From: Candidatus Daviesbacteria bacterium
Lineage (GTDB): Bacteria; Patescibacteriota; Microgenomatia; Daviesbacterales; UBA10151
Length of the DNA stretch: 38,029 nucleotides
Direction: 5' to 3'
Assembly (NCBI GenBank): GCA_016195715.1
Contig: JACPZA010000012.1
Span: 1-38,029 of the forward strand
Numbering within the stretch: position 1 is the stretch's first letter; each line of letters starts with the position of its first letter. Shown piece after piece: positions 1,311-29,196 of the stretch. Position numbers and translations under genes: made by a program. The notes beneath the pieces are model-generated. The model saw nothing but the letters and a program-made list of their open reading frames with translations. It ran no database searches and had not been told where the DNA came from.

Positions 1311-1904
1311 TTAATTATACTTTTCTTTAGCTTTAAATCTAAATACTACAGATAAAACAACCTGATTTTCCCGCCTTAAATCTTCTAAGCCAATATCATG
1401 TAAACTACCATAATTCCAAATTTTAATTTTTTGAGTTCTGCTTCTTAAGGTTAAATCCAAAAAAATAGAACCTCCAATTGTTGATTGAAGTGCACTATAA
1501 CCAGTTACTTCTTCTAAAGAGTTTTTAGCTAAAAATTCATTTAGTTTTCCAATACTTACCCCAGAGTCAACTTCAACTAAAGCCTCAGATACACCAATAC
1601 CGTCTTTACCTACCTTACCCTTTACTCCTGCAATTTTAATATTTGATGAGCGATTTTTTATAACAAGTCCTTTAATCCCTAAATCTGAAATTAAAACCTT
1701 AGTTCCTCCTCCTAATATAAAAAAATTTAAGTTTAGCTCATTTGCTAAATCTAATACTCTAATTAATTCGCGCTGATTTGTGGCAATATAAAAAGCTTCT
1801 GCTGGCCCACCAAGCTTGGAATAGGTGTGAAATGATAGAGGTTCATTTAGTTTTACTCTCTCATCCCCTAAGCTTCTAACAACTAGTCTAAACTTATCAT
1901 CCAT
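1311..1904 (-). CDS. murB: MurB-like FAD-binding protein, FAD domain only
   Basis: LSFHTYSKLGGPAEAFYIATNQRELIRVL...FILGGGTKVLISDLGIKGLVI is MurB N-terminal FAD-binding domain signature; only 197 aa. Confidence 0.8.
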   Translation of the reverse strand: MDDKFRLVVRSLGDERVKLNEPLSFHTYSKLGGPAEAFYIATNQRELIRVLDLANELNLNFFILGGGTKVLISDLGIKGLVIKNRSSNIKIAGVKGKVGKDGIGVSEALVEVDSGVSIGKLNEFLAKNSLEEVTGYSALQSTIGGSIFLDLTLRSRTQKIKIWNYGSLHDIGLEDLRRENQVVLSVVFRFKAKEKYN

Positions 1905-3108
1905 TTAAAATCTTTCTGATAGTATCAGCATCAGACCAAGCAATTTCATTTTTCCCATCTAAGTTCATAGATTTTTCATGTCCTTTGCCAAAAATTGCTA
2001 GAATGTCACCTTTTTTAGCTAATTTTTCAATCGCCATCCTAATCGCTTTTTCTCGATCATTTTCTACAAAAACATCCTCACCTAAGTTACCTCCTGCTTT
2101 CTTAACTCCTTCTAGAATTTGCTTATTAATTTGCTCAACTTCTCCCCTTGGATCAACCGAAGTGATAATTACTTTATCGGCAAGTTTAACCGCAATTTCC
2201 CCCATTAATGCTCTTTTTTGAGTATCTCTATCTCCTTCAGCTCCAATTAGAGCTACTAAATTTCCTTTTTTAAATTTTTGGAGAGTTTTGAGGGCTTGTT
2301 CAAGTCCATTAGGTGTATGCGCAAAATCCACTATAATTTTAATTCCTTTATTATTTTCTATCTCCTCCATCCTTCCTGGCAAAGATTTAAAACTATTTAA
2401 AGTGTCTTTAACTATTTTTGATGGGACTTTCAAATTGATTGAAACAGCTGCGCCAGCTAAAGCATTCAATAAATTATATTCTCCTGGAATTTTTAAGTTC
2501 AAAGGAAATTTAAGTGGATTAAAATCCGAATTTTTGTGTAAACCAAAACTAACAACTTTTCCTTTTGTGAGTTTGGAAAGTCTCTCAAAGTGTTTCTCGT
2601 CTTTATTAATGACAGCTATGTTAACATTTTTAATCAATTTTGCTTTGGTTTTAAAATAATTTTCCCAAGTTTTGTGATAATCTAGATGTTCATGAGTAAT
2701 ATTAGTGATAACCCCAATTTCAAATTTAATTCCTAAAACTCTAAATTGATCCAAGCCATTTGAAGTAACCTCTAAAACTAAATATTTTGATTCAGCTTCT
2801 TTAGCTTTTCTAATATATTTTTGTAAATCAGATGCATTGGGACTTGTGATATGAAAACCGGTATCAAAACTTTCATCTCCAATCATTGCATTTATAGTTG
2901 AGATCATGGAAACTTTTTTGCCAGCATTTTTTAGAATCTGATAAATCATATTCGTGGTGGTAGTTTTTCCATCGGTTCCTGTTACTCCAATAACAATCAT
3001 CCCTTTTGCAGGGAACCCAAATCTTAAGTTAGCAATATTTGCTTTAGGAAAATGCCAAGCATAATTTTTTACTTTTTGTGGCACTAAACTTTTTAACTTT
3101 CTAACCAT
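1897..3108 (-). CDS. murE: MurE-type Mur ligase (UDP-MurNAc-tripeptide synthetase family), short N-terminus
   Basis: GVTGTDGKTTTTNMIYQIL, ITNITHEHLDYHKTWENYFKTKAKL, LPGRMEEI, VDFAHTPNGLEQAL, ITSVDPRGE; an in-frame stop lies just upstream of the ATG. Confidence 0.88.
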   Translation of the reverse strand: MVRKLKSLVPQKVKNYAWHFPKANIANLRFGFPAKGMIVIGVTGTDGKTTTTNMIYQILKNAGKKVSMISTINAMIGDESFDTGFHITSPNASDLQKYIRKAKEAESKYLVLEVTSNGLDQFRVLGIKFEIGVITNITHEHLDYHKTWENYFKTKAKLIKNVNIAVINKDEKHFERLSKLTKGKVVSFGLHKNSDFNPLKFPLNLKIPGEYNLLNALAGAAVSINLKVPSKIVKDTLNSFKSLPGRMEEIENNKGIKIIVDFAHTPNGLEQALKTLQKFKKGNLVALIGAEGDRDTQKRALMGEIAVKLADKVIITSVDPRGEVEQINKQILEGVKKAGGNLGEDVFVENDREKAIRMAIEKLAKKGDILAIFGKGHEKSMNLDGKNEIAWSDADTIRKILNG

Positions 3109-3115
3109 TGGCGAA

Positions 3116-3121
3116 ATTATA
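3116..3121 (-). promoter_or_regulatory. Candidate -10 box TATAAT 7 nt upstream of murE
   Basis: Minus strand TATAAT-TTCGCCA-ATG. Confidence 0.4.
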
Positions 3122-3234
3122 TATTAAACTCCTACTAAACCTTTTTCAGATTATGATTAATTAACTTATTCCTCTGTGCAAAGGTTTGAATATATTATCC
3201 TCCCTAATTCAACAGTTTTAAAGAATGCTGCTTT

Positions 3235-5235
3235 TTAACTTTCTCTTTTGTAGACTCTTGCCTCTATTCCATTAGACACAATTCTGACTTTTCTAAGTTT
3301 TGATAAATCATGATACCTAAGTAGAGCAAAATCATCCTCGTTTCTATCAGGGAATAAACAAACAAGTCCTCTCTCAGCACAGAGAGTTTGAATGTGTCCA
3401 TTTCGACCATCAGAATTATAGATAATAACTGCTCCCTCTTTAGGTAAGTGATAATCATTTTGTTCCATTGTCCAACCATAGTTACCCCTGAATACTACAA
3501 CTCCAGATTTTTCAGTATTATCAGCATCTTCATCTAAAACCGGAAGTTCCATATCCCCAAATCCAATTGATGCTCCAGAATGGATTGGTGTTTCATCAGG
3601 GAACTTTATTTCAGGAGCTTCTTCTACTGCTTTGGTTGGTAATCCTCTTACTTGTACAAAATGAATAGTATGGCCCTCTCCTACAAATTCTGCCTGCACA
3701 TTTCTATCCCAAATTCTTTCAACAGCATAAGTAAGTTGTGCAACCCTAATGGGTAGGTGCGGAGCTACTTTAAATTGATCTGGTCGAAAATGATGTACAG
3801 TTCTAAAAGCATCGTCATTTCTATCAACATCTAAGGCAATAAAAAAATCTAGTTCCTCTCTATTAACAAAATTTCTGCTAGTTCCAGTTACAATTTCCAT
3901 GAGGTTTGGTACCCCAGGAAGTCTTGAGTTTATATATCCCTCTGTAGATTGACCATGCATTGAGAAGCTATGAGGGGAAACAAATCTTTGTATAACAAGC
4001 CCCATCTCTTCTTTATCAATTCCATGTTGTGCTCTGTAGGCTTGAGCTTGGGGACTATCAGTTGATTCGTAAACTCTTGTTACTGCACCCTTAAAATCTT
4101 CAAATGTTGCCCCGCCACGAACTCGTTCTGAGTGATAAATTCCAGCACCCGTAACTGTCTGTCCATCTTCTGAAAATACAGCACTACTTCTTATCATATA
4201 ATCAGCTGGGCTTGGATCTTCGGAGTACCGCCTATCATCATCTTTTAAAGCACTAGCCCAATCAAAATATGGTTGGAGTTGATCATCTATTAGTTTTCCA
4301 TCTCGCCAAGCTCTATATGAATCAACAGGTACAGCTTGAAACTCTGGAACAGCGATTGTTACATCAAATAAGTAACCTTTTCTTAATCTATTTATGTCTT
4401 CTACCAATTCTGAGAATATTATTAAATTCGCAGCTTTTGCACCATATTGAAGACGAAGTTGGTCAAATCGGTCTTTATCTCTTTTTGGTAATTGCTCCAA
4501 TCTTCTTTCAAACGGATATCTTAATATTGCTGCCTGTGCTACATCAATTGCTTCTCCTAAACCAAAACTTCCAGATATACTACTTCCATCCTTTGTATTA
4601 AGTTCAGTAGAAAGGTATGAACGATGTTGAAGATTGCCCCATGTTGGCTCAACCACTTCGTCTCTAGAATGCCCTCTGTGGAATGTAAAAGGAAAGCCAT
4701 TTACATAACCTAAAACTTTTTTTTTAAGAGCTAAACCTTTTCTATATCTTCGTGCCAATTTAGGTTCGCTACGAACATCCTCAGCCATTTTTCTAATTTG
4801 TCTCTCACCATTTCTAATTTGAATTCTTTCATAAGCAGAGTCCGCAAGGGCTTCAGGATTCAATTCTTCTCCCCAGTTAAGCTCTCCAGTTTGGAGATCA
4901 AACCTATGAACAACACTCTCTATTAATTCAAATGAATTACCAATTCCTGCATGAAGCTTTTCAGAATCATCTATAGTTATTCCATGCCTAGCAAAGAACC
5001 CTTGAGGATTTTCTCCTGCATCGTATGTCGAAAATTGTAGCTGCCGTATATGGCTGAAAGGCATGCAAACCAAACCACGTGTTGTAGCCTCGAGGGCTTC
5101 TATTGATGGATCAGCCATTTGAAGATATAAGTTTTTTAATCCAATTGCTCTGAGTCTTTTACTTTTAGGATCTTCTTGAAAAGGATCTAAATCTCTGCCT
5201 AACTGGTATAAAGCTTCTGACTTTTCCTGAATCAT
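3235..5235 (-). CDS. PEP-synthase/PPDK-related protein: unassigned N-terminal region + PPDK_N-like ATP-grasp + phosphohistidine swivelling domain, no PEP-binding barrel
   Basis: GAKAANL...AVPEFQAVPVDSYRAW (PPDK_N start), IRSSAVFSEDG...GAGIYHSE...YRAQHGI...GLVIQRFV, QAEFVGEGHTIHFVQVRGLP (ATP-grasp end), GRNGHIQTLCAERGLVCLFP (His-domain loop). Ends without a PEP-utilizers TIM barrel. Confidence 0.75.
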   Translation of the reverse strand: MIQEKSEALYQLGRDLDPFQEDPKSKRLRAIGLKNLYLQMADPSIEALEATTRGLVCMPFSHIRQLQFSTYDAGENPQGFFARHGITIDDSEKLHAGIGNSFELIESVVHRFDLQTGELNWGEELNPEALADSAYERIQIRNGERQIRKMAEDVRSEPKLARRYRKGLALKKKVLGYVNGFPFTFHRGHSRDEVVEPTWGNLQHRSYLSTELNTKDGSSISGSFGLGEAIDVAQAAILRYPFERRLEQLPKRDKDRFDQLRLQYGAKAANLIIFSELVEDINRLRKGYLFDVTIAVPEFQAVPVDSYRAWRDGKLIDDQLQPYFDWASALKDDDRRYSEDPSPADYMIRSSAVFSEDGQTVTGAGIYHSERVRGGATFEDFKGAVTRVYESTDSPQAQAYRAQHGIDKEEMGLVIQRFVSPHSFSMHGQSTEGYINSRLPGVPNLMEIVTGTSRNFVNREELDFFIALDVDRNDDAFRTVHHFRPDQFKVAPHLPIRVAQLTYAVERIWDRNVQAEFVGEGHTIHFVQVRGLPTKAVEEAPEIKFPDETPIHSGASIGFGDMELPVLDEDADNTEKSGVVVFRGNYGWTMEQNDYHLPKEGAVIIYNSDGRNGHIQTLCAERGLVCLFPDRNEDDFALLRYHDLSKLRKVRIVSNGIEARVYKRES

Positions 5236-5243
5236 AGTTCGAG

Positions 5244-5249
5244 ATTATA
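5244..5249 (-). promoter_or_regulatory. Candidate -10 box TATAAT 8 nt upstream of the PEP-synthase-like ORF
   Basis: Minus strand TATAAT-CTCGAACT-ATG; suggests its own transcription start inside the dcw cluster. Confidence 0.4.
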
Positions 5250-5286
5250 TCAAAATAGAACACCTATTGCTAATTATAGGATTTAC

Positions 5287-6948
5287 TTATTGCTGAGGTG
5301 AAATGCCATAGTAAATAAATAACTCTTTGGCAATATCAAAAAAAGTTGGAGCGGCAGTTTCAGCACCAAAAATAGAAGATTGCGGCTCACGATAACGCAC
5401 TAACATAATAAATTTAGGATCTTTGGCTGGTGCAAAACCTATGAATGAAGCGATTGTTTTATTAGCATCATAATGTCCAGCTACTGGAATTTGAGCAGTT
5501 CCAGTTTTTCCAGCAATAGAAAAATTTGCTAAGCCTGCATTCTTTTTGTAAAATTGCGCTTCCCCCTTATCAACAGCTTTTACCATCATCTCTGTGATAA
5601 CTTGAGCAGTTTCTTTGCTAATTGGATTTCCCACAATCCTGGGTTGTATTGGAAAAGATTTGTTATCATCTTTAATGAGTTTGGCAATATGTGGTTCCAT
5701 TTCTTGTCCACCATTGGCAATTGCTGAAACTGCTTTGATCATTTGCATTGCAGTAACAGCAATTCCTTGACCAAAAGAACTAGTAGCCAAATCAATCTCC
5801 CTCCAGTCATTGAGCGGTCTCATGTTTGGGGAAACTTCATCTTGCAAATCAACATTAGTTAGATTCCCAAAACCATAGTTTTTAATATATTGATACATTT
5901 TATTAACACCTAATTTTTTAGAAACAAATACCATACCGGTATTGTCTGAGTGAACAATTACATCAGTCATAGAAGAATCTGGTTGATATTGGTTATTCCA
6001 GGTGCGAATTGTAAATCCTCCTAAAGAAACAGGACCTGCGCAAATATCACAAATTGCATCAGGAGTGACTAATTTTTCATTAATCGCTGCCGACATAACC
6101 AAAACTTTAAAAGTTGAACCTGGTTCGTAATTATCTGCAATGATTGGGTTTTTGTAATTTTCTTTTGGATATTTACCTGGGTTAATTGGATCATAGCTAG
6201 GATAGGCTGCCATCGCCAAAATGTTGCCAGTTTTTGGATCCATAACAATTGCTGATGCTTCCTTAGCACTATATTTAGCTAGTCCTTGTTTTAGCTTATC
6301 TTCAACGATATGCTGGATAGTTCGATCAATATTTAAAACCAAAGTCTTGCCAGGTTTTGGTTCTCGAACCAAAAAATCTCCAATTAAAATCGGCACTCCT
6401 TGAGCATCTTGCTCTTGCTGCAGTAACCCATCTTTACCTTTAAGTTCTCCATTATAAAATCCCTCTAGTCCAAAGTAACCAGTTTCACTACCGTAAATAT
6501 CCGATCCAACAAATCCTAAAACATGCGCAGAAGATGATCCTTCGGGATAAAATCTAGCTGACCCAGTTTCAAAACCAATCCCTTTTAAATTCTTTTTTTC
6601 AATTTTTAATTTTTCCTCGGAGTTGGCTCTTCTCCCTAAGCTTACCCAAAATAGATCTTTGGAAAGAGTTTGAAAAATATTTTCTTGCAAAGTTTTTTCT
6701 TGACTAACTTTTTCATCTGGTTCAATTACTTCACCTTCATGATCATCCTCCCAAAAAGTTTGAGCTAAAGTTTGAGCTACTTGAGTTTTATCCTGAATAA
6801 TTTTGGGTTGAGCATAAATTAAAAAAACTGGTTGAGTGGAAGCTAGCGTTGTCCCATCTGAAAATAAAATATTTCCTCTTGGTGCTAAAACTTCCTGGGT
6901 GGAGTTTCGTTGTTTTTCAGCTAAAGCAGTTAAAAAATCTGAACGCAA
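5287..6948 (-). CDS. ftsI: FtsI/PBP2-type class B penicillin-binding protein (transpeptidase); true 5' end probably at 7027 after an apparent frameshift
   Basis: EPGSTFKVL (SxxK), HSDNTGM (SxN), AGKTGTAQ (KTG), dimerisation region LGFVGSDIYGSETGYFGLEGFYNGELKGKDG. The open frame as given begins at a TTG inside the expected post-TM segment. Confidence 0.92.
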   Translation of the reverse strand: MRSDFLTALAEKQRNSTQEVLAPRGNILFSDGTTLASTQPVFLIYAQPKIIQDKTQVAQTLAQTFWEDDHEGEVIEPDEKVSQEKTLQENIFQTLSKDLFWVSLGRRANSEEKLKIEKKNLKGIGFETGSARFYPEGSSSAHVLGFVGSDIYGSETGYFGLEGFYNGELKGKDGLLQQEQDAQGVPILIGDFLVREPKPGKTLVLNIDRTIQHIVEDKLKQGLAKYSAKEASAIVMDPKTGNILAMAAYPSYDPINPGKYPKENYKNPIIADNYEPGSTFKVLVMSAAINEKLVTPDAICDICAGPVSLGGFTIRTWNNQYQPDSSMTDVIVHSDNTGMVFVSKKLGVNKMYQYIKNYGFGNLTNVDLQDEVSPNMRPLNDWREIDLATSSFGQGIAVTAMQMIKAVSAIANGGQEMEPHIAKLIKDDNKSFPIQPRIVGNPISKETAQVITEMMVKAVDKGEAQFYKKNAGLANFSIAGKTGTAQIPVAGHYDANKTIASFIGFAPAKDPKFIMLVRYREPQSSIFGAETAAPTFFDIAKELFIYYGISPQQ

Positions 6949-7343: not shown

Positions 7344-7736
7344 TTAAGATAATTTTTTTGTTAAAATTCCCTTCAGCTTTGTTGGGTTCCAAATTTCAAA
7401 ATGATCTCCAGCTCCGATTAAAACAATTTTTTCTTTAATATTTACCAATCTTAATAAGAAATCTGAGATCACAAACCTACCTTGCTTATCTAACTCACTA
7501 CTTTCTGAGAAGGGGAAAAATTCCCTTCTTAAGGTTCTGCCTTGTTCCAAAGTAATTGGAATTTCCAGTTGTTTTTTTACAAATTCTTGCCAAGATTCAA
7601 TAGAAAATCCCCAAATTCCACCATCAATCCCTTTCATTAAAATTATTTCTGGTTTTTTTAATTCTTTTCTAAATTTTTTTGGTAAAATAATTCGACCTTT
7701 TCCAGAAAAAGTTAAGTTGTATGTGCCCAAAAACAT
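7344..7736 (-). CDS. mraZ: Transcriptional regulator MraZ
   Basis: MFLGTYNLTFSGKGRIILPKKFRKEL...LDKQGRFVISDFLLRLVNIKEKIVLIGAGDHFEIWNP; two SpoVT/AbrB-like MraZ repeats. Confidence 0.95.
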   Translation of the reverse strand: MFLGTYNLTFSGKGRIILPKKFRKELKKPEIILMKGIDGGIWGFSIESWQEFVKKQLEIPITLEQGRTLRREFFPFSESSELDKQGRFVISDFLLRLVNIKEKIVLIGAGDHFEIWNPTKLKGILTKKLS

Positions 7737-12150: not shown

Positions 12151-14076
12151 TTACAAAGCTAGTTTGAACTCTTTATCTGAATCTAATTGGAAAATTTGTT
12201 GAGTTTTTCCATTAACTTTAATTGTATAATCAAAAGCTTTAGTTCCAGGTTGTTTTTGGATTAAAAGTGGTAACTCTTTTCCAGAAACAGAATTAGGTAA
12301 TTCATATTCAAAAGATAAAACATTAGAATTTCCTGGGCGGATTTGGACAAAAGCTTCAAAATAGGTTTTATTTAAATCGCTATCTTCTTTCGTGGTCACT
12401 TGTTCTTCAGAACCTTTTGAAGACATTAAACTACTCCCTTTTGGCGCATAAATTCTGACATAATCTCTATTTATCCCATTTAACCAGGTATTATAAGGCT
12501 GTGGATTTTTATAATTAATAGTTAATTTGTGTTTAACCTTACCTGTTGAATCAGTATTAATTTCAAGTGTTACATTCTCTGTTACATAAATATTGGATTT
12601 TCCTCCAGCAAAATTTGAATCATTAATGTGTAAATAATCACCTTTAAAATCTTTATTTATCTCTCCAGTCCAATTTAATTGTGACAGCGCTTGTTGTACT
12701 TTTTGATCATGCATGTAAAACATAATGTCTTTGGCACTTGCTAACTTTACTCCAGCATTTATAAACTCAGGCAAATGTTCGCTACTTGCGGATAACGATC
12801 TGGCTAAAATTTGCTGCATTAAAGCACCTAAAATTGCTTTCCTGTCTTCTTCCCCTTTTTCAATAATCTGGGCATAATTTTCTAGCTCATAAATTACATT
12901 TGGACAATTGCACCTTGAATCATTATCTGCACTATATTTTGTTCCAAAAACTTCAACTGGACCAGTAATTTTAATTAATTCTTCAACTACGTGAGTATCA
13001 ATGGTAATAATCCCATCGAATTTTTCACCGTCTGGCAAAAAGCTATACAGCTTTTCAAATTCTTGCATCGATGTTGGCAAATCAGGCGATAAATTGGAAT
13101 CTCGCATTGACCAAGCACTACGTAGTTTACCATTGGCTTCTGGTAAATACTTAACAATTGCCTCAGGAGGGGTTAATGGGCAGATTACATTTAGGCAGGT
13201 TTTTAATAATTTTTCATCTAGCCTATAAATATCATCTGAGCTTGAAGAATCAACATGTCCTTTGTCTAAAGTTAAAAAAGCATAAGCCGTCATAAATCCA
13301 CCCGTTGCTCGAAGCTCTTTGTCATTTTGGAAAATAATTAAATAGTTTTTAGGGGTAGGCTCGCCAAGCGCACTAGGTGCTATATTAATAGCTGATCTGC
13401 CTTGAGTAATTGCGCCGTGCGCTCCCATAATTAAATTTTTGGCTGCATCTATTTGAGAGCGCAGCTGATATTTACCAATTTTTTCTGGATATTTATTTAC
13501 ATCAATGCTTGAAACCTCATCACTAGCTTTTTTTAGTTGTGGTTCAATCTCATCAAGTTTTGGATTAACTTTGTCCAAAATTTTTACCAGTTGTGTAATT
13601 TTGTCTTGGCCAGGGGTTGGATGTCCTGTAAATCCAAGTTCATTTTTGTAAGGGAGTAAAGAATTGACTAAAGTTTGTGATGCAGTTAACTCATAACCTG
13701 CTGCAGTTGAAAAATGATTAATATCACCGTAATAGTCACCCAAAAAAGGAATAATTCTTACCCAAAATAAAAAATTAAGCGCAGTTTTTAAGCTATCGCT
13801 TGAATTTTTCATCTGATCAAGGCTGGATTTGATATCATCCAGGTTTTCATTTTTAAAAGCAGTTTTAATATTCCTGGCTGAGTTAATTAACTGCCTGGAT
13901 GATGAATAAACTCCTCTTGTGGGTATATAGATAATCACAGCTATGATAATTAGAATAACTAAAACTCTTAAAACTCCTTTAAATCCCCGCTTTTTTTTAG
14001 GAGTTGCGTATCTTTGAGTTTGACTGTAACCTCGATCTAAGACTGCTATTTTTCTATTTAAATTAACAAATTTCAT
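12151..14076 (-). CDS. DUF4012-domain membrane-anchored protein
   Basis: N-terminal TM, then YLIIFQNDKELRATGGFMTAYAFLTLDKGHV, characteristic of DUF4012; adjacent to the sugar transferase. Confidence 0.82.
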   Translation of the reverse strand: MKFVNLNRKIAVLDRGYSQTQRYATPKKKRGFKGVLRVLVILIIIAVIIYIPTRGVYSSSRQLINSARNIKTAFKNENLDDIKSSLDQMKNSSDSLKTALNFLFWVRIIPFLGDYYGDINHFSTAAGYELTASQTLVNSLLPYKNELGFTGHPTPGQDKITQLVKILDKVNPKLDEIEPQLKKASDEVSSIDVNKYPEKIGKYQLRSQIDAAKNLIMGAHGAITQGRSAINIAPSALGEPTPKNYLIIFQNDKELRATGGFMTAYAFLTLDKGHVDSSSSDDIYRLDEKLLKTCLNVICPLTPPEAIVKYLPEANGKLRSAWSMRDSNLSPDLPTSMQEFEKLYSFLPDGEKFDGIITIDTHVVEELIKITGPVEVFGTKYSADNDSRCNCPNVIYELENYAQIIEKGEEDRKAILGALMQQILARSLSASSEHLPEFINAGVKLASAKDIMFYMHDQKVQQALSQLNWTGEINKDFKGDYLHINDSNFAGGKSNIYVTENVTLEINTDSTGKVKHKLTINYKNPQPYNTWLNGINRDYVRIYAPKGSSLMSSKGSEEQVTTKEDSDLNKTYFEAFVQIRPGNSNVLSFEYELPNSVSGKELPLLIQKQPGTKAFDYTIKVNGKTQQIFQLDSDKEFKLAL

Positions 14077-14702
14077 ATGGCCCCCTTACCACTTAAAACT
14101 GCTGGAATAGTTTTAATAATCAAAAAAATATCATAAAAAATGGATCTTCTTTGAACATAGTGAGCATCCATCTCGACTCTTTTATCAAAATTGATATCTG
14201 ATCTTCCAGAAACTTGCCAGATACCGGTTAGCCCTGGTTTGGCTGATAAAATAATCTTAACAAATTCTCTGGAGTTTGGGTATTTTTTTTGTTGAGCCTC
14301 CAGTTCAAATGGGTAATATGCACGGGGTCCAACAATACTCATATCACCTTTTAAAATATTAATCAGCTGGGGTAACTCATCTATAGAGTATTTACGGATA
14401 AACCTGCCGATAATTGTTACTCTGGGATCATTTTGAATTTTATAGCTATTTTTCGTGTATTGTTTTAGCAATTTGGGATCTTGTTGTAAAAGCTGGTGAG
14501 CTCCTACAACCATTGATCTAAATTTAAACATTTTAAAAAGTTGTCCATTTTTACCTACCCTCATGGGAGTATCAGCTAAAATAGGACCTTGCGTATCAAG
14601 TTTGATAGCTAAAGCCGCTAAAATTAAAATGGGTGAAGCAAATACTAAACCCAAGATTGCAGCAATTAAATCTAGAAATCTTTTTAATAGATCATAGAGC
14701 AT
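14073..14702 (-). CDS. Initiating sugar transferase (WcaJ/EpsL-type polyprenyl-phosphate glycosyl-1-phosphate transferase)
   Basis: LYDLLKRFLDLIAAILGLVFASPILILAALAIKLDTQGP, FKFRSM, IRKYSIDELPQLINILKGDMSIVGPRAYYPFE, KPGLTGIWQVSGRSD. Confidence 0.95.
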   Translation of the reverse strand: MLYDLLKRFLDLIAAILGLVFASPILILAALAIKLDTQGPILADTPMRVGKNGQLFKMFKFRSMVVGAHQLLQQDPKLLKQYTKNSYKIQNDPRVTIIGRFIRKYSIDELPQLINILKGDMSIVGPRAYYPFELEAQQKKYPNSREFVKIILSAKPGLTGIWQVSGRSDINFDKRVEMDAHYVQRRSIFYDIFLIIKTIPAVLSGKGAI

Positions 14703-14710
14703 AATATTTA

Positions 14711-14738
14711 ATTATATCTTTTAACCGAGCAAGGGCAA
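14711..14738 (-). promoter_or_regulatory. Candidate promoter TTGCCC-16-TATAAT, -10 box 8 nt from ATG of the sugar transferase
   Basis: Minus strand TTGCCC (14733-14738), TATAAT (14711-14716), 8 nt to ATG at 14702. Confidence 0.45.
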
Positions 14739-14741
14739 GCT

Positions 14742-15809
14742 TTAATCTTTAATATTTTTTATTGATTTTAAAAATCTCTGTTTAAACTTATCTTTAGAAA
14801 AATTTTTGGCGTTATTTATACAATCTTCCCTATTGAATTTTTTTCTTTCAAAAAGTTCAATTGTTTTTTTTAAACTTTCTTCAGTTTGTTCATCAAAAAA
14901 AACTCCGGTAATATTTTCGATGACAGTTTCTAATACTCCGCCTTCTCTAAAGCCGATAACTGGTTTTCCTAAAGCTTGAGCTTCTAGCGCAGTTAGCCCA
15001 AAATCCTCTTCACTAGTAATTATTAGGGCTTTTGCTCCAGAAATAAAATTAATTAACAAATTATCAGAAGCATTTCCTAAAAACTCTACATCCCCTTTAG
15101 CTAGTTTACTTAAATTGCTCAACTCTGGACCAGTTCCAATAATTTTTAAAGGCTTTTTCAAATTATTAAAAACTTGAATTGCTAAATCAACTCTCTTATA
15201 GAAATTAAGTCTAGAGATCATTAAATAATATCCACCATCAAAATTTTGGGAGTTATTAAAAAATTTATCATCAACAAATGGAAAACAAACTAAAGAGTTT
15301 TGCTTGTAAATTTTCTGAATTCTTTGTTTGGCATTTTCAGATCCTGCAATAAAATAATCCACTCTGCTAGAACTAATTTGATCATAAATTCGAAAATAAC
15401 TTAAAAGGTAAGTTAATAATTTATTTTGTGGCTGTTTTGAAAATCTCCATAAAAATCTCGGGGGAGTGTGACAATAAGAAACATGGGTAGTTTTAGGTTT
15501 AGTCAAAACTGATTTGGCAAATCTAGTGGTATGTGAAATTACCAAATCATATTCTGAAAAATCAAATTGCTCAAAAGCAATAGGATATAGGGGAAGTAAA
15601 GATTTATAAAGAGTTTTAAAACCAGGAATTTTCTGGATAAATGAAGTTATGATTTTTTTATTAGAAAAATTATTAGATAAATGTATATTTGATTCATCAA
15701 AACAAGACGTATAAATAGGCGCCTCTGGAAAAATTTCTGATAAGACACTTAATACTCGCTCAGCTCCTCCCCACTGAATTAAATCATCATGTACTAATGC
15801 AACTTTCAT
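14742..15809 (-). CDS. Glycosyltransferase family 4
   Basis: MKVALVHDDLIQWGGAERVL; GTGPELSNL; SEEDFGLTALEAQALGKPVIGFREGG. Confidence 0.9.
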   Translation of the reverse strand: MKVALVHDDLIQWGGAERVLSVLSEIFPEAPIYTSCFDESNIHLSNNFSNKKIITSFIQKIPGFKTLYKSLLPLYPIAFEQFDFSEYDLVISHTTRFAKSVLTKPKTTHVSYCHTPPRFLWRFSKQPQNKLLTYLLSYFRIYDQISSSRVDYFIAGSENAKQRIQKIYKQNSLVCFPFVDDKFFNNSQNFDGGYYLMISRLNFYKRVDLAIQVFNNLKKPLKIIGTGPELSNLSKLAKGDVEFLGNASDNLLINFISGAKALIITSEEDFGLTALEAQALGKPVIGFREGGVLETVIENITGVFFDEQTEESLKKTIELFERKKFNREDCINNAKNFSKDKFKQRFLKSIKNIKD

Positions 15810-15814
15810 TAAAT

Positions 15815-15843
15815 TTGACTTTATAAGTTTAGTCTTTCAAAAT
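15815..15843 (+). promoter_or_regulatory. Candidate rsmH promoter TTGACT-17-CAAAAT, -10 box 6 nt from ATG
   Basis: TTGACT (15815-15820), 17-nt spacer, CAAAAT (15838-15843), 6 nt to ATG at 15850, inside a 40-bp divergent gap. Confidence 0.45.
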
Positions 15844-15849
15844 TGTATC

Positions 15850-16770
15850 ATGAAAGTTTACCACCAACCGGTTTTACTAAGTGAGGTAATTAGTTTTTTA
15901 AACATTCAACCAAATCATTGGTATATTGATTGTAACTTAGGCGGAGGGGGACATACAGGTGAAATTTTAAAAAGAGGTGGAAGAGTTTTAGGCATCGATT
16001 TAGATCCTGATGCAATTTCTGAAGTTGCAAAAAATTTTAATCTTACCATTCAAAAGAGAGATCAACGCCTTTTTGCAGAGTCAAAAAATCTAATAATTTA
16101 TCAGTCCAATTTTACAGAAATCAAATCAATTGTTAAACAATTTAATATCCAAAAAGTTGATGGTATTTTATTTGACCTAGGAGTTTCTTCATATCAACTT
16201 GAAACTAAAGATAGGGGATTTAGTTTTAATTTGAATGCACCGCTAGATATGCGTATGGATAAACAAAGTTTAGTAACAGCCACTGATCTAATCAATGGTT
16301 TGCATGAAAGTGAGTTAGCAGAGTTATTTTTTAAATTGGGTGAAGAACGTTTTGCAAAAAGAATTGCCAAAAAAATAGTTGAACATCGGCAACTTAAAAA
16401 AATTGAAACAACTGATCAACTAGCTAAAATTATTTTAGCTGTTCGGCCAAAAAATCGTTTAGATAGAACTCATCCGGCCACTAGAGTCTTTCAAGCTTTG
16501 CGAATTGCTATAAATGATGAATTAAATAGTTTAAAAATTGCACTTCCTGAAACATTAGATGTTTTAAATCCTAATGGTAGATTAGTTGTTTTAACTTTTC
16601 ATTCCCTTGAAGATAGAATAGTTAAAAACTTTTTCAAGGATCAAGAAAAAAAATCTTTAATTGAAGTTTTAAATAAAAAACCTATTACTCCAACAGAAGA
16701 GGAAGTATTAAATAACCCCAGAAGTCGAAGTGGAAAATTAAGGGTAGCTGAAAAACTATTAAGTCTTTAA
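15850..16770 (+). CDS. rsmH: 16S rRNA (cytosine-1402-N4) methyltransferase RsmH/MraW
   Basis: MKVYHQPVLLSEVISFLNIQPNHWYIDCNLGGGGHTGEIL, ILFDLGVSSYQLETKDRGFSFNLNAPLDMRMD, THPATRVFQALRIAINDEL, FHSLEDRIVKNFF. Confidence 0.97.
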   Translation: MKVYHQPVLLSEVISFLNIQPNHWYIDCNLGGGGHTGEILKRGGRVLGIDLDPDAISEVAKNFNLTIQKRDQRLFAESKNLIIYQSNFTEIKSIVKQFNIQKVDGILFDLGVSSYQLETKDRGFSFNLNAPLDMRMDKQSLVTATDLINGLHESELAELFFKLGEERFAKRIAKKIVEHRQLKKIETTDQLAKIILAVRPKNRLDRTHPATRVFQALRIAINDELNSLKIALPETLDVLNPNGRLVVLTFHSLEDRIVKNFFKDQEKKSLIEVLNKKPITPTEEEVLNNPRSRSGKLRVAEKLLSL

Positions 16771-17883
16771 TACTTCTTGGTAGATACTAAGAGTCTGCTT
16801 CGCTAACTTATTCCAGCTGAAATGCTTATATCTTCTTTGACCTCTAGCTATCAATTTAGTCCTTAAAGCTTGATTGTTAATTATCAAAATTAACTTATCC
16901 ATAAAGTCCTCTCTTGATGATGAGTCAAAATATAAAGCTGCATCTCCACCAACTTCTTGTAAAGATTTAATATTTGAAGATAAAACAGGACAACCACAAG
17001 CAAATGCTTCTAAAAGTGGTATTCCAAAACCTTCATCTAAAGATGGAATTACATAGGCCAAACTGGATTTATATAATGCAACTAATTCCTGGTCACTAAC
17101 AAACCCAGTATAAATTATATTTTTATTTCTATATTGCTCTTTAATTTTTTGCCAAAAATAATGGTCATTACCAGAAAGAACTAATTTAAGGTGTTGGTAA
17201 TTTTTTTTTATTTGTAAAAAAGCATTAATTAATCCTTCTATGTTTTTATGCGGATGGGCATTACCAACATAAAATAAATAGGGATATTTAATGTTAAATT
17301 TTTTAATTACTTTTTTAATTTCTTTTTCCGTGATCTTTTTGGACAAATTAATAATCGTTTGATCAACTGCTTCTTGAGTTATAACAATTTTTTCACTAGG
17401 AACTTGGCAAGATTTCATTAGCTCCTCTTTTATATATTCAGAAACTACAAATATCTTTTGACTTTTATTTATGGCTTTAGTAAAAATTTTTTTATATCCA
17501 ATTTTTTTTATTTTATAATCTAAAGCATTTTTTGTTGAAGCTCTCTGCATTTGGAATTTTTGATGAATCAAGTCATGAATTGTAACAACTACTTTTCCTG
17601 AATAAAGTAGCGGGACATTAAAATGGGGAATATGAAGCAAATCCAGGTGATACTTGTTTAACAGTAGGGGGAGTTTAAGTTGTTCTGAAAATCCATACCA
17701 TCTAATATCAGCCAAGACTTTTTGGAAATTATTTGAAAAAGTAATTTTATTAAATGATTCATTTAATAAAAAAATATAATATATATTCTCCTTATCTAAG
17801 ATTTGTAACTCATTTAAAAGATTTCGAATATACCTTCCAACTCCAGATTCATTGTAAAGTCTAGCATCAATTCCTATTCGCAT
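16759..17883 (-). CDS. Glycosyltransferase family 4
   Basis: MRIGIDARLYNESGVGRYIRNLL; FYVGNAHPHKNIEGLI; PSLDEGFGIPLLEAFACGCPVLSSN. Confidence 0.92.
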   Translation of the reverse strand: MRIGIDARLYNESGVGRYIRNLLNELQILDKENIYYIFLLNESFNKITFSNNFQKVLADIRWYGFSEQLKLPLLLNKYHLDLLHIPHFNVPLLYSGKVVVTIHDLIHQKFQMQRASTKNALDYKIKKIGYKKIFTKAINKSQKIFVVSEYIKEELMKSCQVPSEKIVITQEAVDQTIINLSKKITEKEIKKVIKKFNIKYPYLFYVGNAHPHKNIEGLINAFLQIKKNYQHLKLVLSGNDHYFWQKIKEQYRNKNIIYTGFVSDQELVALYKSSLAYVIPSLDEGFGIPLLEAFACGCPVLSSNIKSLQEVGGDAALYFDSSSREDFMDKLILIINNQALRTKLIARGQRRYKHFSWNKLAKQTLSIYQEVLKT

Positions 17884-17884
17884 C

Positions 17885-18772
17885 TTAAACTATCAACTTT
17901 CTTCTTGCTAAAAACCATTTTAGATATATTCCTAAATAAACTAACCAATTAATAAAAAAAGGGTAACTTGCAGCTAAATTTTTTCTATAAAAAATTATCA
18001 TAGTTTGATAAAAAGAATTTAAAGATTTAATTTTTATCTCTTTTGATGCTGAGCTCACATCTTGACTATGGCTTTTAATCCCTGAACTTACTCCTTTCAT
18101 ATGTATAATTTTTACATCGGGGACATAAAAAATTTTATACCCGGCTTTTTTTATTCTAAAACATAGATCTATATCCTCCGCATAAAGAAAATAGTCTTCG
18201 TCAAAAAACCCAACCTCATCTAAAATTTTTTTTCTAGTTAAGAAAAAAGCTCCAACAATTGCATCAACAACATGAGGTTTAGTCATATCCTTAAAAGTTT
18301 GATGATAAAGAGTATCGTCCTTTAAAACATAATATTTAAACGAAACCCAGGGTGTAGGAAAACTCCTATGAGATGCTAAATCTAGTGACCCATCTGCTTT
18401 CTCAACTAAACAACTAGAAGCTCCAACTTTTAAATTATTATCCATAAAACTAACCATCCTCTTTAATGTCTTGGGTAAGACTTTTGTATCATGGTTTAAG
18501 AATAAAACATAAGGAGTTTCAATTTGCTTTAAAATTTGATTATTAGCCTTAGCAAAACCTAAATTTTCTGTATTTTCTATATAATGAAAATAGGGAAACT
18601 TTTTCTTTGCCTGATTTAAACTATCATCTGAGGAGTTATTGTCTGCTATCCAAACATCAAAACGAACCTCACTTTTTACTTTATCCAGAGATTTTAAACA
18701 CTCAAGTAAATAATCTCCACTATTATAATTAACGATACTTATACTAAGCTTTTTTTGTTCCGAGGCCTTCAT
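17885..18772 (-). CDS. Glycosyltransferase family 2
   Basis: SISIVNYNSGDYLLECLKSL, WIADNNSSDDSL, NTENLGFAKANNQ, FLNHDTKV, FFDEDYFLYAEDIDLCFRIKKAGY. Confidence 0.93.
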   Translation of the reverse strand: MKASEQKKLSISIVNYNSGDYLLECLKSLDKVKSEVRFDVWIADNNSSDDSLNQAKKKFPYFHYIENTENLGFAKANNQILKQIETPYVLFLNHDTKVLPKTLKRMVSFMDNNLKVGASSCLVEKADGSLDLASHRSFPTPWVSFKYYVLKDDTLYHQTFKDMTKPHVVDAIVGAFFLTRKKILDEVGFFDEDYFLYAEDIDLCFRIKKAGYKIFYVPDVKIIHMKGVSSGIKSHSQDVSSASKEIKIKSLNSFYQTMIIFYRKNLAASYPFFINWLVYLGIYLKWFLARRKLIV

Positions 18773-19937
18773 AAATTTTACCTAAATTTTTAGCAATTGG
18801 ATCCCAGTCATATTTTTGATTAACCATTTTTTTAGCATTACCAGCTATTTTTTTATATAAAGCCTTACTTGTTAGTAGCTCTATTGTCCAAGCAACAATC
18901 TCATTTGGATCATCTCTTATAATTACCTCTTTCCCGTCAATAGCCTCTGTTCCCCCAATACCTATCGATGTCGTTACAACTGGTAAACCTGATGCAAAAG
19001 CTTCAAAATTTTTATATCTAGTTCCTCCTCCTCCATAGATAGGAGCTACCAAAATAGAAGCTTTTTGATATGCAACTCTAACATCAGAAACCTCTTCTAC
19101 TTTAATATCATCGCTATTTAATTTGGAAAAAAACTTTTCCGCTGCTTTACCCACAATCCAAAGTTTAGCATTAGGAATTTGCTGTTTAATTTTTGGCCAA
19201 ATTTTTCTCAATAAAACATCAACTGCTTCTCTGTTTTGTAACCATGTAAAGTTACCAAGATATAGGATAATAGGATCTTTTGATTTATCTGCTATCTTTT
19301 TACTAAAAAAACTACTATCAACTCCATTTGGCACAATATCCACGTCTAGGTTTTTTACTTCTGAAAGCATAATTTGTTTATCATTTTCAGACATTGCCAC
19401 TACTTTTTTGGCTTTCTGCCAGTATTTTAATTCCCAAAATTTTAATTTAGCGACATCAATATAAAAAAAGGGTTTTAAGAAAATAAATCTATTTTGGTTT
19501 GCAAAATGTCTATAAACTAAATATTCAATTGTTTGCTCAACTAAAAGTATCGGTATCTCAGTTTGAGGAATGTGGGGCATTACATAAAAAGTTTCAGCAT
19601 GAATTAAGTCAAATTTTTCAGCTTTCAATTTTTTTTGTATAGCCTGCTTTTCTCCACTGGCCCAGTTCCTAACAACTAAAAAGGGATAAAAACTAAATCC
19701 AGTTCTTAAAATATTGGTTAATGTCCATGGCTTTATAGGTCTATCAAAGATCTTTACCTCGCTACAGTATTTTTCAAGTTCAGGAACATATTTTTTTTCC
19801 TCTTGGTTTTTAATTAAACAAAAAAGAGTAATTTCATGATTTAACTTAGATAATCTTTTTATCAAATTAAAAGATCTGGTTTGACCTCCTGTTAGAAGCG
19901 GGAAGGGTAAATAAGGTGTAAGCATGAGTATTTTCAT
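18744..19937 (-). CDS. Glycosyltransferase family 4
   Basis: MKILMLTPYLPFPLLTGGQTRSFNLIKRLS; ILYLGNFTWLQNREAVDVL; GGGTRYKNFEAFASGLPVVTTSIGIGG. Confidence 0.92.
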   Translation of the reverse strand: MKILMLTPYLPFPLLTGGQTRSFNLIKRLSKLNHEITLFCLIKNQEEKKYVPELEKYCSEVKIFDRPIKPWTLTNILRTGFSFYPFLVVRNWASGEKQAIQKKLKAEKFDLIHAETFYVMPHIPQTEIPILLVEQTIEYLVYRHFANQNRFIFLKPFFYIDVAKLKFWELKYWQKAKKVVAMSENDKQIMLSEVKNLDVDIVPNGVDSSFFSKKIADKSKDPIILYLGNFTWLQNREAVDVLLRKIWPKIKQQIPNAKLWIVGKAAEKFFSKLNSDDIKVEEVSDVRVAYQKASILVAPIYGGGGTRYKNFEAFASGLPVVTTSIGIGGTEAIDGKEVIIRDDPNEIVAWTIELLTSKALYKKIAGNAKKMVNQKYDWDPIAKNLGKIYEGLGTKKA

Positions 19938-19938
19938 A

Positions 19939-21447
19939 TCAAAGTGGTTCTTTTAGATCATCAGCCGATTTAACATTTTTATAAAAATCAGGGTTTATTT
20001 TCGTTAAATCAATAATCACATACAAAGGAGTTGCGTCCAAGACTGTATATTTTTTCATTAACCATTTTGTTTTAGCATCATAAGTAACTGATACATAGCT
20101 AGTAGTTTTAAACCTGGTTATCAACTCATCTATCGCCAAAGGTGTATAGGGAAAACCATATCTATTTGTCTGATACAAAAATGCTGTATCTCCAAAATAA
20201 GGAGCTATAACCACCGCATTTTTTGGAAGTAACTGGTCTGCTTTCTGACCAGCGATGACAATTGCTGGATTATTTATTTGATATAAACCTTTAACCTCAT
20301 TTGTGGTTAAAATAAATATTAGTACAAAAAATAAAAAAGCCAAAGGTATGGTCATAATTCTTGGTAAAAAAATGGGTATACCTCTAAATAAACTAACAAA
20401 TCCCCGAGCGACAAAAATTACTAAAGCCGGGACAATCATATATTGATAATAATCATGCTGGACATTTCCCGTTGCAAAAACTATCAAATACAGAAAACTT
20501 GATATAGCTAGAAGATGTAATAAAAGATTTTCCTTACCAGTTGGTTTAATTAATAATCCAATTACTAATAATATTGTTCCTGGAATAGATAAAATCTCTC
20601 TACCCAATCTATCATTAATTATCCAACGCCAAAAAGCCGGTCTAAATCTTATACCATTACCATTAAATAACCAATTAGAAGCTGGTATACCCTCGGGGTG
20701 CTGATTTATCCAGATTCTCCATAAAGCCAGTGGTAAAAAAATCGCTAATAAATAGAAAAAATAAATTTTAGAGACTTTGAAAATACTTTTTTCCTTAGTA
20801 AAAAAAAGATAAATCAAAGGTAATACATAAAAAATTGCCATCGGCTTAATCAAAAAAGCTAAAGCACCAAATATACCACCCAAGAAAAAAAATGTTTTAG
20901 TTTTATGCAAAATCCACCTATCTGTAAAGTAAAACATCCCTAAACTGAAAAAAACTAAGGATGGTTCAGGAAGTGTAGTTCTTGAAAAATAAACATTAAA
21001 AGGTAAAAAAGCATATAAAAAAGATGCAATAAGTGCAGTTATCTTACTAAAATATTTTTTTGTAATTAAAAAAATGAATACACAGGATCCCAAGGAAAAA
21101 AATACATTTATTATCCTGGCAATTTTTTCATCAACTCCTCCATTCAATAAATAGCCAAAATAAACTAAAGATTGATAGATTGGAAACTCTGCAAAACGAT
21201 ATCTGCCTAAATTAAATCCAAACCCATCAGATACAGCAGACATGTCATCATACTTTGGAACAAATGGATTATAACCTTCTTTATAAAAATTACGCGCAAC
21301 TGCTGCCGTATCTGCTTGTCTCCAAGAATGCCAATCTGCAATTGGATTATCAATTTTATAAAGTCTCACGAAAAAACCTAAAAATAATATTAGAGTTAAC
21401 CAAAAAAAAGGGTTTAGTATTAATTTAGTCAATTTATTCATTTTCAT
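19939..21447 (-). CDS. GT-C membrane glycosyltransferase (ArnT/PMT, GT39-like)
   Basis: Multi-TM; early DWHSWRQADTAAVARNFYKEG acidic loop and FSRTTLPEPSLVFFSL motif. Confidence 0.8.
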   Translation of the reverse strand: MKMNKLTKLILNPFFWLTLILFLGFFVRLYKIDNPIADWHSWRQADTAAVARNFYKEGYNPFVPKYDDMSAVSDGFGFNLGRYRFAEFPIYQSLVYFGYLLNGGVDEKIARIINVFFSLGSCVFIFLITKKYFSKITALIASFLYAFLPFNVYFSRTTLPEPSLVFFSLGMFYFTDRWILHKTKTFFFLGGIFGALAFLIKPMAIFYVLPLIYLFFTKEKSIFKVSKIYFFYLLAIFLPLALWRIWINQHPEGIPASNWLFNGNGIRFRPAFWRWIINDRLGREILSIPGTILLVIGLLIKPTGKENLLLHLLAISSFLYLIVFATGNVQHDYYQYMIVPALVIFVARGFVSLFRGIPIFLPRIMTIPLAFLFFVLIFILTTNEVKGLYQINNPAIVIAGQKADQLLPKNAVVIAPYFGDTAFLYQTNRYGFPYTPLAIDELITRFKTTSYVSVTYDAKTKWLMKKYTVLDATPLYVIIDLTKINPDFYKNVKSADDLKEPL

Positions 21448-22885
21448 TTTTACCTAGCTTATAGTCTGTAATAATCGCCCAAGCAATACCCAGCCAAATC
21501 CACAAAAGCTCTGCAACCTTAGATGCTTCCAACACGTCAATAACAGTTGCCGTTACTAAAATGACAACAACAGACGTAATCATAGAGAGTAGATAATACT
21601 TCTCAAAGCCCTGGCTTTGATTAAATACTTTTAACAGACTTTTGATTAATATGTAAAAAATAAGAGCTAAGCTTAAAGTTCCAAGTATTCCTACCTCACC
21701 TAATGATCTTAAAAAATCATTATCTGTAGCCAAAGATATTGATGAATAGCCAGTGCCTAAAAATGGATTTCGCAAAAAAGAGTTAATCGCCCTTGGCCAC
21801 TCAACGTTAAGCCTTATACCAAAAGACCTGTAAACTCCGAGTTCTGTAGAATTTACTGGCTCCCCTGCAACCGTATCTTTATAAACTATTGTACTAGGAC
21901 TGCCTGGATTTGCAGCACGTTTAGCTCGGTCCTCTAAAACCTGCTGCCTGATGTTTTCAGGAATTTGATCGATTGGAGTAAAATCAGTAATTGTCCCAGG
22001 TGCAGGAGTGTACTTTGGTCCTCCTCCGTTAAGTAAATTGACGGTAACTGTTGCAACTAAACGGTGACGAAGCTCAGGGATTAGCCCTACTGATGCTATA
22101 ACAAGGAATATTAATAAAACTAACAAAACTTTTTTTTGGTTTAACCAAAATACAGCTGCTAAACCTAAAATAGTAGCTACAAAAGATACCCTAGCTGCTG
22201 TTAAACCAAGCAAAGCAAAACTGATAAATCCAACAAATGCAATCATCAATTTATTTAAAATTTTTCTATAATAAAAGAAATTTGTGGCTATAATCATTAA
22301 AATTATTGATAGATACATTGCTAGATCATAGTGTCCAGCAAAGGTAGAGTTTACCCTGGCACCATTGGTCAAGTATAAAATTAAACCTTTAGAAAACTCC
22401 CTATTTGTTGTTGAAATAACTGGGAAGTTAAAATAAATTTGCCCAAAGCCATAAAATATAACTATCAATGCACCAACTAAACTAATTTTAATTAAAAATT
22501 TTGCCTGGTTTAACGAAGAAACACTTGTTGCAGCAATCAAAAATAAACTCATATATTCAACTCGACGCAACCAATGAAACAGAGCTAGCTTTAAAGATAT
22601 TGTATGAGTTATAAAGATCCCCGAAAATAAAGATAAAAGTCCGATTAACCAAAATAGAATAAAAGCCTGGAAGATGATATTAGAAAAATATTTTCTTAAA
22701 TTCCGAATATTGAAAACAAACCAAACAAATACCACCAAAGCAATTAATACATCCTCATATCTAATAGCAACAAAAGTACCTGATATATTTTCCAAAGGAA
22801 ATTTTGGGAAAAGAGGAATAAAGATAAATAAAATCCCTATTAAGAAATAAAAATATTTTCTATAAATAAGCTGAAAGTTATTCAT
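21434..22885 (-). CDS. O-antigen ligase/polymerase-like (WaaL/Wzy) membrane protein
   Basis: Multi-TM; NGARVNSTFAGHYDLAMYLSI, GLTAARVSFVATILGL, large extracytoplasmic loop, NPFLGTGYSSISLATDNDFLRSLGEVGILG. Confidence 0.82.
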   Translation of the reverse strand: MNNFQLIYRKYFYFLIGILFIFIPLFPKFPLENISGTFVAIRYEDVLIALVVFVWFVFNIRNLRKYFSNIIFQAFILFWLIGLLSLFSGIFITHTISLKLALFHWLRRVEYMSLFLIAATSVSSLNQAKFLIKISLVGALIVIFYGFGQIYFNFPVISTTNREFSKGLILYLTNGARVNSTFAGHYDLAMYLSIILMIIATNFFYYRKILNKLMIAFVGFISFALLGLTAARVSFVATILGLAAVFWLNQKKVLLVLLIFLVIASVGLIPELRHRLVATVTVNLLNGGGPKYTPAPGTITDFTPIDQIPENIRQQVLEDRAKRAANPGSPSTIVYKDTVAGEPVNSTELGVYRSFGIRLNVEWPRAINSFLRNPFLGTGYSSISLATDNDFLRSLGEVGILGTLSLALIFYILIKSLLKVFNQSQGFEKYYLLSMITSVVVILVTATVIDVLEASKVAELLWIWLGIAWAIITDYKLGKNENE

Positions 22886-22894
22886 AAAATCTAG

Positions 22895-23785
22895 TTAGAT
22901 TGATTTAATAATATTTAGGTAATTTTTAGCAAACTCTTTTTTGCCTAATAGATAAAAAATAATTAATCTTATTATTACAAAAAAATAAATCAATATTTTT
23001 AAAGCATAGACTCCAACCGTTCCTAAATATTTTTGGTACAAATAAATCATCCCTTTAAATTCTCCTAACCATTGTTTAAATTGTGGATTATTATGACTCC
23101 CCCCGCCTAAATGAACAAATGTAACATCAGAAAAAATACCCACCTTAAGTCCAGCTTCGTTTGCTCTAATGCACAAATCAACATCTTCAGCATACATAAA
23201 TATTTTTTCATCAAAATAACCTATTTTATTAAACACTTCTTTTTTTATCGCCATTATTGTTCCTGATACCCAACCTACTTTTGGATTATTCAGGTAGTAT
23301 TTTTTCTCTAACCGATGGAAAGAAGGTAAGCTAACTCCAAATGTGTTAAAAAAATCATCTAATCCAGAAATCCAGGTAATTAAAGCCAAGCCAAATGGTA
23401 AATCACCAGCATTAGGCTGGAAACGACCATCAGGATAAGTAAGCTTGGAAGCCATAATAGAATAAGGAGAAGCAGCTAAATAATTAATCCATCTTATGGT
23501 ACTACCTCCATCGGTTTTTGTATCAGAATTTAAAAGTAAATAGATCTTGCTGTTAACTTTTTTCAATCCAACATTATAACCTTTAGAAAAACCCAAATTT
23601 TCATTATTATAAATTACATTGACTTTTGAAAATTCAGTTTTTAACATCTTTAAAGATCCATCAGTTGACGCATTATCAATCACCCAAATTTTTTGGGGTT
23701 TAACACTTTTTAGAAGCGACTGCAAGCAATCTTTAAGTAGTACTTTAGTGTTGTAGTTCAAAATCATAATTACAAAATCATCCAT
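22895..23785 (-). CDS. Glycosyltransferase family 2
   Basis: VIMILNYNTKVLLKDCLQSLL, WVIDNASTDGSL, NENLGFSKGYNVGL, LLNSDTKT, YFDEKIFMYAEDVDLCIRANEAGL. Confidence 0.93.
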   Translation of the reverse strand: MDDFVIMILNYNTKVLLKDCLQSLLKSVKPQKIWVIDNASTDGSLKMLKTEFSKVNVIYNNENLGFSKGYNVGLKKVNSKIYLLLNSDTKTDGGSTIRWINYLAASPYSIMASKLTYPDGRFQPNAGDLPFGLALITWISGLDDFFNTFGVSLPSFHRLEKKYYLNNPKVGWVSGTIMAIKKEVFNKIGYFDEKIFMYAEDVDLCIRANEAGLKVGIFSDVTFVHLGGGSHNNPQFKQWLGEFKGMIYLYQKYLGTVGVYALKILIYFFVIIRLIIFYLLGKKEFAKNYLNIIKSI

Positions 23786-24374
23786 ATTTTGTAACTCTCC
23801 TAAATAGTTTATACAGAACTATAAAAGCAACCCAAATTCCCAGGTATACTAAAAATCTAGCCAAATACGGGGAAGGATAATATCTTAAAGTTGCCTTAGT
23901 GTTAAAATATCTATCTTGATAATAAATATGATCTCCAACATAACTTCTCACTTTTACCTTACGTCGATCATTATCAGCATGTGGGTCAACACCATTAACA
24001 AATAGAGATTCTCTCAAGGGAAACACATATTCCTCCAAAAAGGTAGACTCTTGCTGATCTCTAACATACTGATAAGCTTCTTCAGGAGGATGATTTAACC
24101 TTAGGGGCAAAACCTTAAGGTCGAAAAAAACCCTTTCTCCCAACATCTGTCTATAGTAACTGGTAATAAATTCTCTCCTAAAATCATTAAAATAAGCAGC
24201 TATATTTGGATTCTGGATAGTATCACCCTCAAGATTAGATTTAACAGAATTAGGCAAAGGTAAAAAAGAATCTATTGAACTAGGGCCTGGGAGTATTATA
24301 TATGCTAACCCAATGAAAAAAAGAATCAGTAAAAAAAGTTGAAGTCTGGATAAATTTTTTAATCTAAGATCCAT
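23778..24374 (-). CDS. Uncharacterised bitopic membrane protein
   Basis: TM near the N-terminus (LQLFLLILFFIGLAYII), about 130-aa extracytoplasmic region, C-terminal TM (FLVYLGIWVAFIVLYKLF); no family recognised. Confidence 0.65.
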   Translation of the reverse strand: MDLRLKNLSRLQLFLLILFFIGLAYIILPGPSSIDSFLPLPNSVKSNLEGDTIQNPNIAAYFNDFRREFITSYYRQMLGERVFFDLKVLPLRLNHPPEEAYQYVRDQQESTFLEEYVFPLRESLFVNGVDPHADNDRRKVKVRSYVGDHIYYQDRYFNTKATLRYYPSPYLARFLVYLGIWVAFIVLYKLFRRVTKYG

Positions 24375-25024: not shown

Positions 25025-25030
25025 TATTAA

Positions 25031-25036
25031 ATTATA
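25031..25036 (-). promoter_or_regulatory. Candidate -10 box TATAAT 6 nt upstream of the acyltransferase ATG
   Basis: Exact TATAAT on the minus strand, then TTAATA, then ATG; no good -35 seen. Confidence 0.35.
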
Positions 25037-25046
25037 CTTAAATTAG

Positions 25047-29173: not shown

Positions 29174-29196
29174 AACTATATTTAGTCTAAAACATT

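Follow-up and report, generated by a model that had tools for sequence, protein, structure and literature searches.

A predicted phosphotransferase with an unrecognised N-terminal domain in a variable slot between ftsI and murE of a Candidatus Daviesbacteria genome

The window, the whole stretch of 38,029 nucleotides analysed here, belongs to a genome of 1.15 Mb that is 99% complete, in a class where genomes span 0.5-1.7 Mb. The window carries an open reading frame (ORF) for a protein of 666 aa, just as a preliminary description of this DNA had reported; the ORF is flanked by ftsI (Transpeptidase, 5287-6948) and a MurE-type Mur ligase (1897-3108) and lies on the same strand as both. The features discussed below are given one per line; PPS stands for PEP synthase, RPH for rifampin phosphotransferase and G721 for the genome encoding the one full-length relative.

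3109..5286, no strand: variable slot between ftsI and murE, holding the 666-aa gene, recognised by comparison of family genomes
5244..5273, minus strand: promoter-like site with TG-A-TATAAT at its end, directly before the ATG; a similar TG-G-TATAAT precedes the start of the G721 gene
3235..5235, minus strand: whole gene, 666 aa with ATG start, encoding an N-terminal domain, an ATP-grasp domain and a phosphohistidine swivel domain
4450..5235, minus strand: N-terminal domain (residues 1-262), putatively acceptor-binding, no Pfam match, 45% identity to G721
4435..4437, minus strand: Lys267 (in GAKAAN), equivalent of RPH/PPDK Lys22, aligned and invariant
4189..4191, minus strand: Arg349 (in IRSSA), equivalent of RPH Arg117
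3646..3654, minus strand: Gln528-Val-Arg530 (VQVR), the end-of-grasp motif VQ-R of PPS
3601..4449, minus strand: ATP-grasp domain of PPDK_N/PEP-synthase type (residues 263-545; Pfam PPDK_N and hhalign)
3394..3396, minus strand: codon of His614, which aligns with the PPS catalytic His (GGRTSH) and is identical in G721
3238..3600, minus strand: phosphohistidine swivel domain (residues 546-666), aligned by hhalign to that of PPS, 64% identity to G721

The gene resembles its neighbours in third-position GC (0.20) and in its AGA-rich arginine codons. Its GC content (about 36-40% in 500-base windows) is slightly higher than that of murE (about 29-36%), and its product contains 8.3% Arg and 4.2% Lys, against 3.0% and 12.9% in MurE. 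Matches to the promoter-like pattern are no commoner than in shuffled sequences. A 14-nt direct repeat (3089-3102 and 3231-3244) does not flank the gene, and we dropped it as a candidate insertion scar; 14 of 500 simulated sequences contained a repeat of that length. Elsewhere in the window, mraW (rsmH, Methyltransf_5; 15850-16770, plus strand) lies 8 kb from mraZ (7344-7736, minus strand), on the opposite strand and inside a glycosyltransferase cluster. Since an ORF of comparable size (about 300 aa) sits between mraZ and ftsI in the three family genomes inspected in detail, mraW has probably been relocated to that cluster in the window. The cluster itself (14073-31460), with its many glycosyltransferases, a sugar transferase (Bac_transf), and PMT-like and Wzy_C-like proteins, is a surface polysaccharide locus adjoining the dcw genes.

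The junction between ftsI and murE could be compared in 29 family genomes that include murE and its upstream DNA. The end of ftsI is separated from murE by at most 146 bp in 21 of them; the remaining gaps measure 207 bp (one genome), 428 bp (one), about 0.8-1.0 kb (three) and more than 1.4 kb (three). Longer stretches of these last three showed ftsI still upstream and gene order kept, with the inserts lying between. Altogether, 7 of the 29 genomes have inserts of 0.4-2 kb at the junction, mostly unrelated genes, which include PaaX_M-type, NUDIX, short-chain dehydrogenase (SDR) and isomerase-like genes, a weak DUF2795 match and an IS200-type transposase. Three family genomes have the PaaX_M (Cas2-like) genes at this position (L019 2878-3378, L034 887-1387 and L024 3008-3715). 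The 666-aa gene is absent from the junction in all 29. The slot is thus an insertion hotspot, and because it holds unrelated inserts, position within the dcw cluster provides no evidence of a function in the cell wall.

The 666-aa protein has a single Pfam match, to PPDK_N, limited to residues 343-422 and above the curated cut-off (E 2.5e-8); its G721 relative matches the same family almost to the end of the profile (positions 96-314 of 328, E 2.1e-15). Profile-profile comparison (hhalign), with a reference profile of 22 PEP synthases and 40 column shuffles as controls, gave a collinear alignment of residues 262-666 to the PPS ATP-grasp and swivel domains (P 1.3e-9). Taken alone, the ATP-grasp part scored 60.0 against a shuffled maximum of 22.2, and the swivel part 29.8 against 22.7, a modest result (P 0.0013). 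In three comparisons DGRNGH614 aligned with the phosphohistidine site GGRTSH. These results bear out the ATP-grasp and His swivel domains proposed in the preliminary description; of the two Pfam families it named, PF01326 (PPDK_N) was matched, and PF00391 (swivel domain) was matched by Pfam in neither the protein nor its relative. The PEP-utilizing TIM barrel is indeed lacking, as the ORF stops after the swivel domain and has no match to PF02896 (PEP-utilizers_C). A PDB sequence search gave no meaningful match, and AlphaFold2 models built without an alignment were unusable (mean pLDDT 31.5 for the whole protein and 36.7 for residues 546-666).

Residues 1-262 matched no Pfam family, and their hhalign score against the PPS profile (18.0) fell within the shuffled range (maximum 26.6), so the N-terminus is as unrecognised as first described. 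It contains the conserved polar motifs DPFQE (17-21), NGERQI (142-147) and PFTF-RGHS-DE (182-193), which suggest a binding or catalytic surface. The ATP-grasp domain ends near residue 533 and the swivel domain starts near residue 550, too close together for an acceptor domain to fit where RPH has one. Residues 1-262 are therefore, by elimination, the candidate acceptor domain.

Seven residues are identical in both members: Lys267, Arg349, Ser369, Glu516, Gln528, Arg530 and His614. Their counterparts in RPH-Lm are Lys22, Arg117, Thr136, Glu297, the VQ-R motif and His825, equivalences that were mapped through PPS and not RPH itself and, for Ser369, placed by hand with a one-residue gap. The roles of Lys22, Arg117, Thr136, Glu297 and His825 in RPH-Lm have been described (PMC4844700); the position of Thr136 is Ser369 in both members. 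Both carry Gln514 where the PPS motif DIEW has Asp (Q-A/L-E-F), the GLGE motif is not retained in the shortened grasp domain, and the Thr of the swivel-site motif GGxTSH is replaced by Asn (DGxNGH). The key ATP-site residues Lys267, Arg349, Ser369 and Glu516 are thus in place, but the DxE Asp and GLGE are lost, for which reason nucleotide binding may be altered.

The full-length relative, on contig C68 of G721, belongs to another family of the same class and shares 54% identity over residues 6-664 (E 1.1e-219), rising from 45% in residues 1-262 to 56% in residues 263-545 and 64% in residues 546-666, the most conserved part. The two genes differ at 51% of third codon positions, against 36% and 29% at the others, an excess expected of a protein under selection. 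Since this relative has the same three parts, the architecture is, judging from the two sequences, that of a stable protein and not of a broken PPS, and the possibility raised at the outset that homologues might expose a fragment of an ordinary PPS is excluded. Nor is the 666-aa protein the PPS of the cell, because the same genome encodes elsewhere a complete one (L016, 809 aa) with all three PPS domains, including PF02896.

Searches with the protein or a two-member profile found the gene in 2 of about 775 distinct genomes of the phylum, and in no other family genome searched; these two are the known members. Peptide or DNA patterns, which detect close relatives only, revealed no more members in GTDB contigs or IMG/VR; the motif pattern G-x-G-[VI]-YHSE proved too strict, as G721 has YDSV. 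One IMG/VR match (L070) was rejected as a helicase/methylase protein. Other matches in the phylum were ordinary PPS or chance, with the exception of a 544-aa orphan (L003 403-2037, from G304:C35), which adjoins a glycosyltransferase-like ORF and combines a divergent PPDK_N (E 1.5e-6) with a C-terminus of about 290 aa of unrecognised kind. The orphan resembles the 666-aa protein over the first ATP-grasp lobe (blastp 1e-8) and differs in architecture. On the 3.7-kb contig of the G721 relative, the gene adjoins a DUF2958 gene; there is also a weak Replic_Relax match (E 0.22, below the cut-off). DUF2958 is frequent on mobile elements, so its presence beside the relative makes horizontal spread of the gene likely.

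The 666-aa protein is thus a predicted member of the PPS/PPDK/RPH superfamily that differs in its domain arrangement. It shares with RPH (RPH-Lm, PDB 5FBS-5FBU) the ATP-grasp domain, the C-terminal phosphohistidine swivel, the absence of a PEP barrel and the counterparts of Lys22, Arg117 and His825 in Lys267, Arg349 and His614. In contrast, it is about 200 residues shorter, and its extra domain is N-terminal, whereas the acceptor (RIF-binding) domain of RPH lies between ATP-grasp and swivel. In PPS and PPDK, the swivel domain directly follows the ATP-grasp, as in the collinear alignment obtained here, but the 666-aa protein has the N-terminal 262-aa domain and no PEP/pyruvate-binding TIM barrel, in addition to the Thr-to-Asn and Asp-to-Gln replacements. 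The two-component aromatic dikinases HpeHI, CreHI and PpsAB have the same list of parts (ATP-grasp, swivel His, acceptor domain), but their ATP-grasp is a separate protein, and acceptor and swivel domains are fused (PMC12167813). A Streptomyces plasmid protein annotated as 'PEP/pyruvate-binding' (WP_142270066.1) is similar in the ATP-grasp around VRSS..AGVYDS, which is however C-terminal (match at 476-555 of 668), in the opposite domain order; its gene is flanked by an ATP-grasp gene and an MFS transporter. The two Streptomyces plasmid loci encoding such proteins (L071 2567-4573 and L072 2585-4597; about 670 aa, C-terminal ATP-grasp, the same flanking genes) look like biosynthetic or resistance cassettes. 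Our literature search found no X-ATP-His proteins, which is no proof that there are none, and further databases may contain other X-PPDK_N proteins.

The best reading of these data, in agreement with the preliminary description, is an RPH-like, ATP-driven phosphotransferase, predicted from an ATP-grasp and a His swivel joined to an unrecognised N-terminus without a PEP barrel. We consider it fairly probable that this is an accessory enzyme of the dikinase superfamily that was acquired horizontally and passes phosphate from ATP through a phosphohistidine to an acceptor bound by the N-terminal domain. According to the superfamily mechanism (PMC4844700, PMC12167813), ATP would bind in the ATP-grasp domain (263-545), and His614 of the swivel domain (546-666) would accept a phosphate from it with release of AMP + Pi, as in PPS and RPH. 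The phosphohistidine would then swing to the acceptor held by residues 1-262, which would stand in for the PEP barrel or the rifampin-binding domain. Phosphorylation of His614 is proposed by homology to PPS and RPH; we likewise infer the catalytic activity, the AMP + Pi stoichiometry, acceptor binding by residues 1-262 and the horizontal acquisition. By analogy with RPH and HpeHI, a small molecule is our first guess for the acceptor.

Other readings explain part of these observations. The acceptor might be a protein or nucleic acid, for example if this were a defence or competition gene on mobile DNA: the gene is rare, patchy and located in a hotspot, a DUF2958 gene adjoins the relative, and defence genes are often similarly patchy. 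Yet the 666-aa protein matched no PADLOC or PHROG family, no homologue was found in phages, plasmids or IMG/VR (plasmids yielded only ATP-grasp similarity in the two Streptomyces proteins), and the window genes scanned include no recognised defence gene, which leaves this reading unlikely. The replacement of Asp by Gln in the DxE motif, the loss of GLGE and the shortened grasp domain might instead indicate a catalytically dead or regulatory dikinase descendant that binds only a nucleotide or ligand. We regard this as quite improbable: although the two proteins differ at about 46% of positions, they have the same catalytic His and share the remaining ATP-site residues, and their most conserved part is the swivel domain. 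Moreover, RPH retains its activity when its Mg-binding Glu297 is substituted (PMC4844700).

An enzyme acting on a peptidoglycan precursor was hinted at in the preliminary description by the location between ftsI and murE, on their strand. We find this very improbable: in other genomes the variable slot contains genes of unrelated kinds, and related genomes with the same set of wall genes lack this one. Recurrent linkage of homologues to mur or fts genes is also not seen, either at the 29 junctions or around the sole relative, whose contig has no mur or fts gene, though it is only 3.7 kb long.

Pyruvate, rifampin, glucans and phenols are known substrates of enzymes combining an ATP-grasp with a swivelling His. 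If a compact enzyme of this kind has an acceptor domain of unrecognised type, this would indicate a new substrate and show that the ATP/His module is reused with different acceptor domains, in this case in bacteria whose small genomes hold few accessory enzymes. It is possible, and we suggest it only tentatively, that the two proteins represent a small undescribed family of mobile phosphotransferases of CPR-like bacteria, with a new acceptor-binding fold in the order X / ATP / His and a target new to this class of enzyme (an antibiotic, signalling molecule or macromolecule, for example). Finally, the ftsI-murE junction collects accessory genes in this family, and is therefore a place to seek others.
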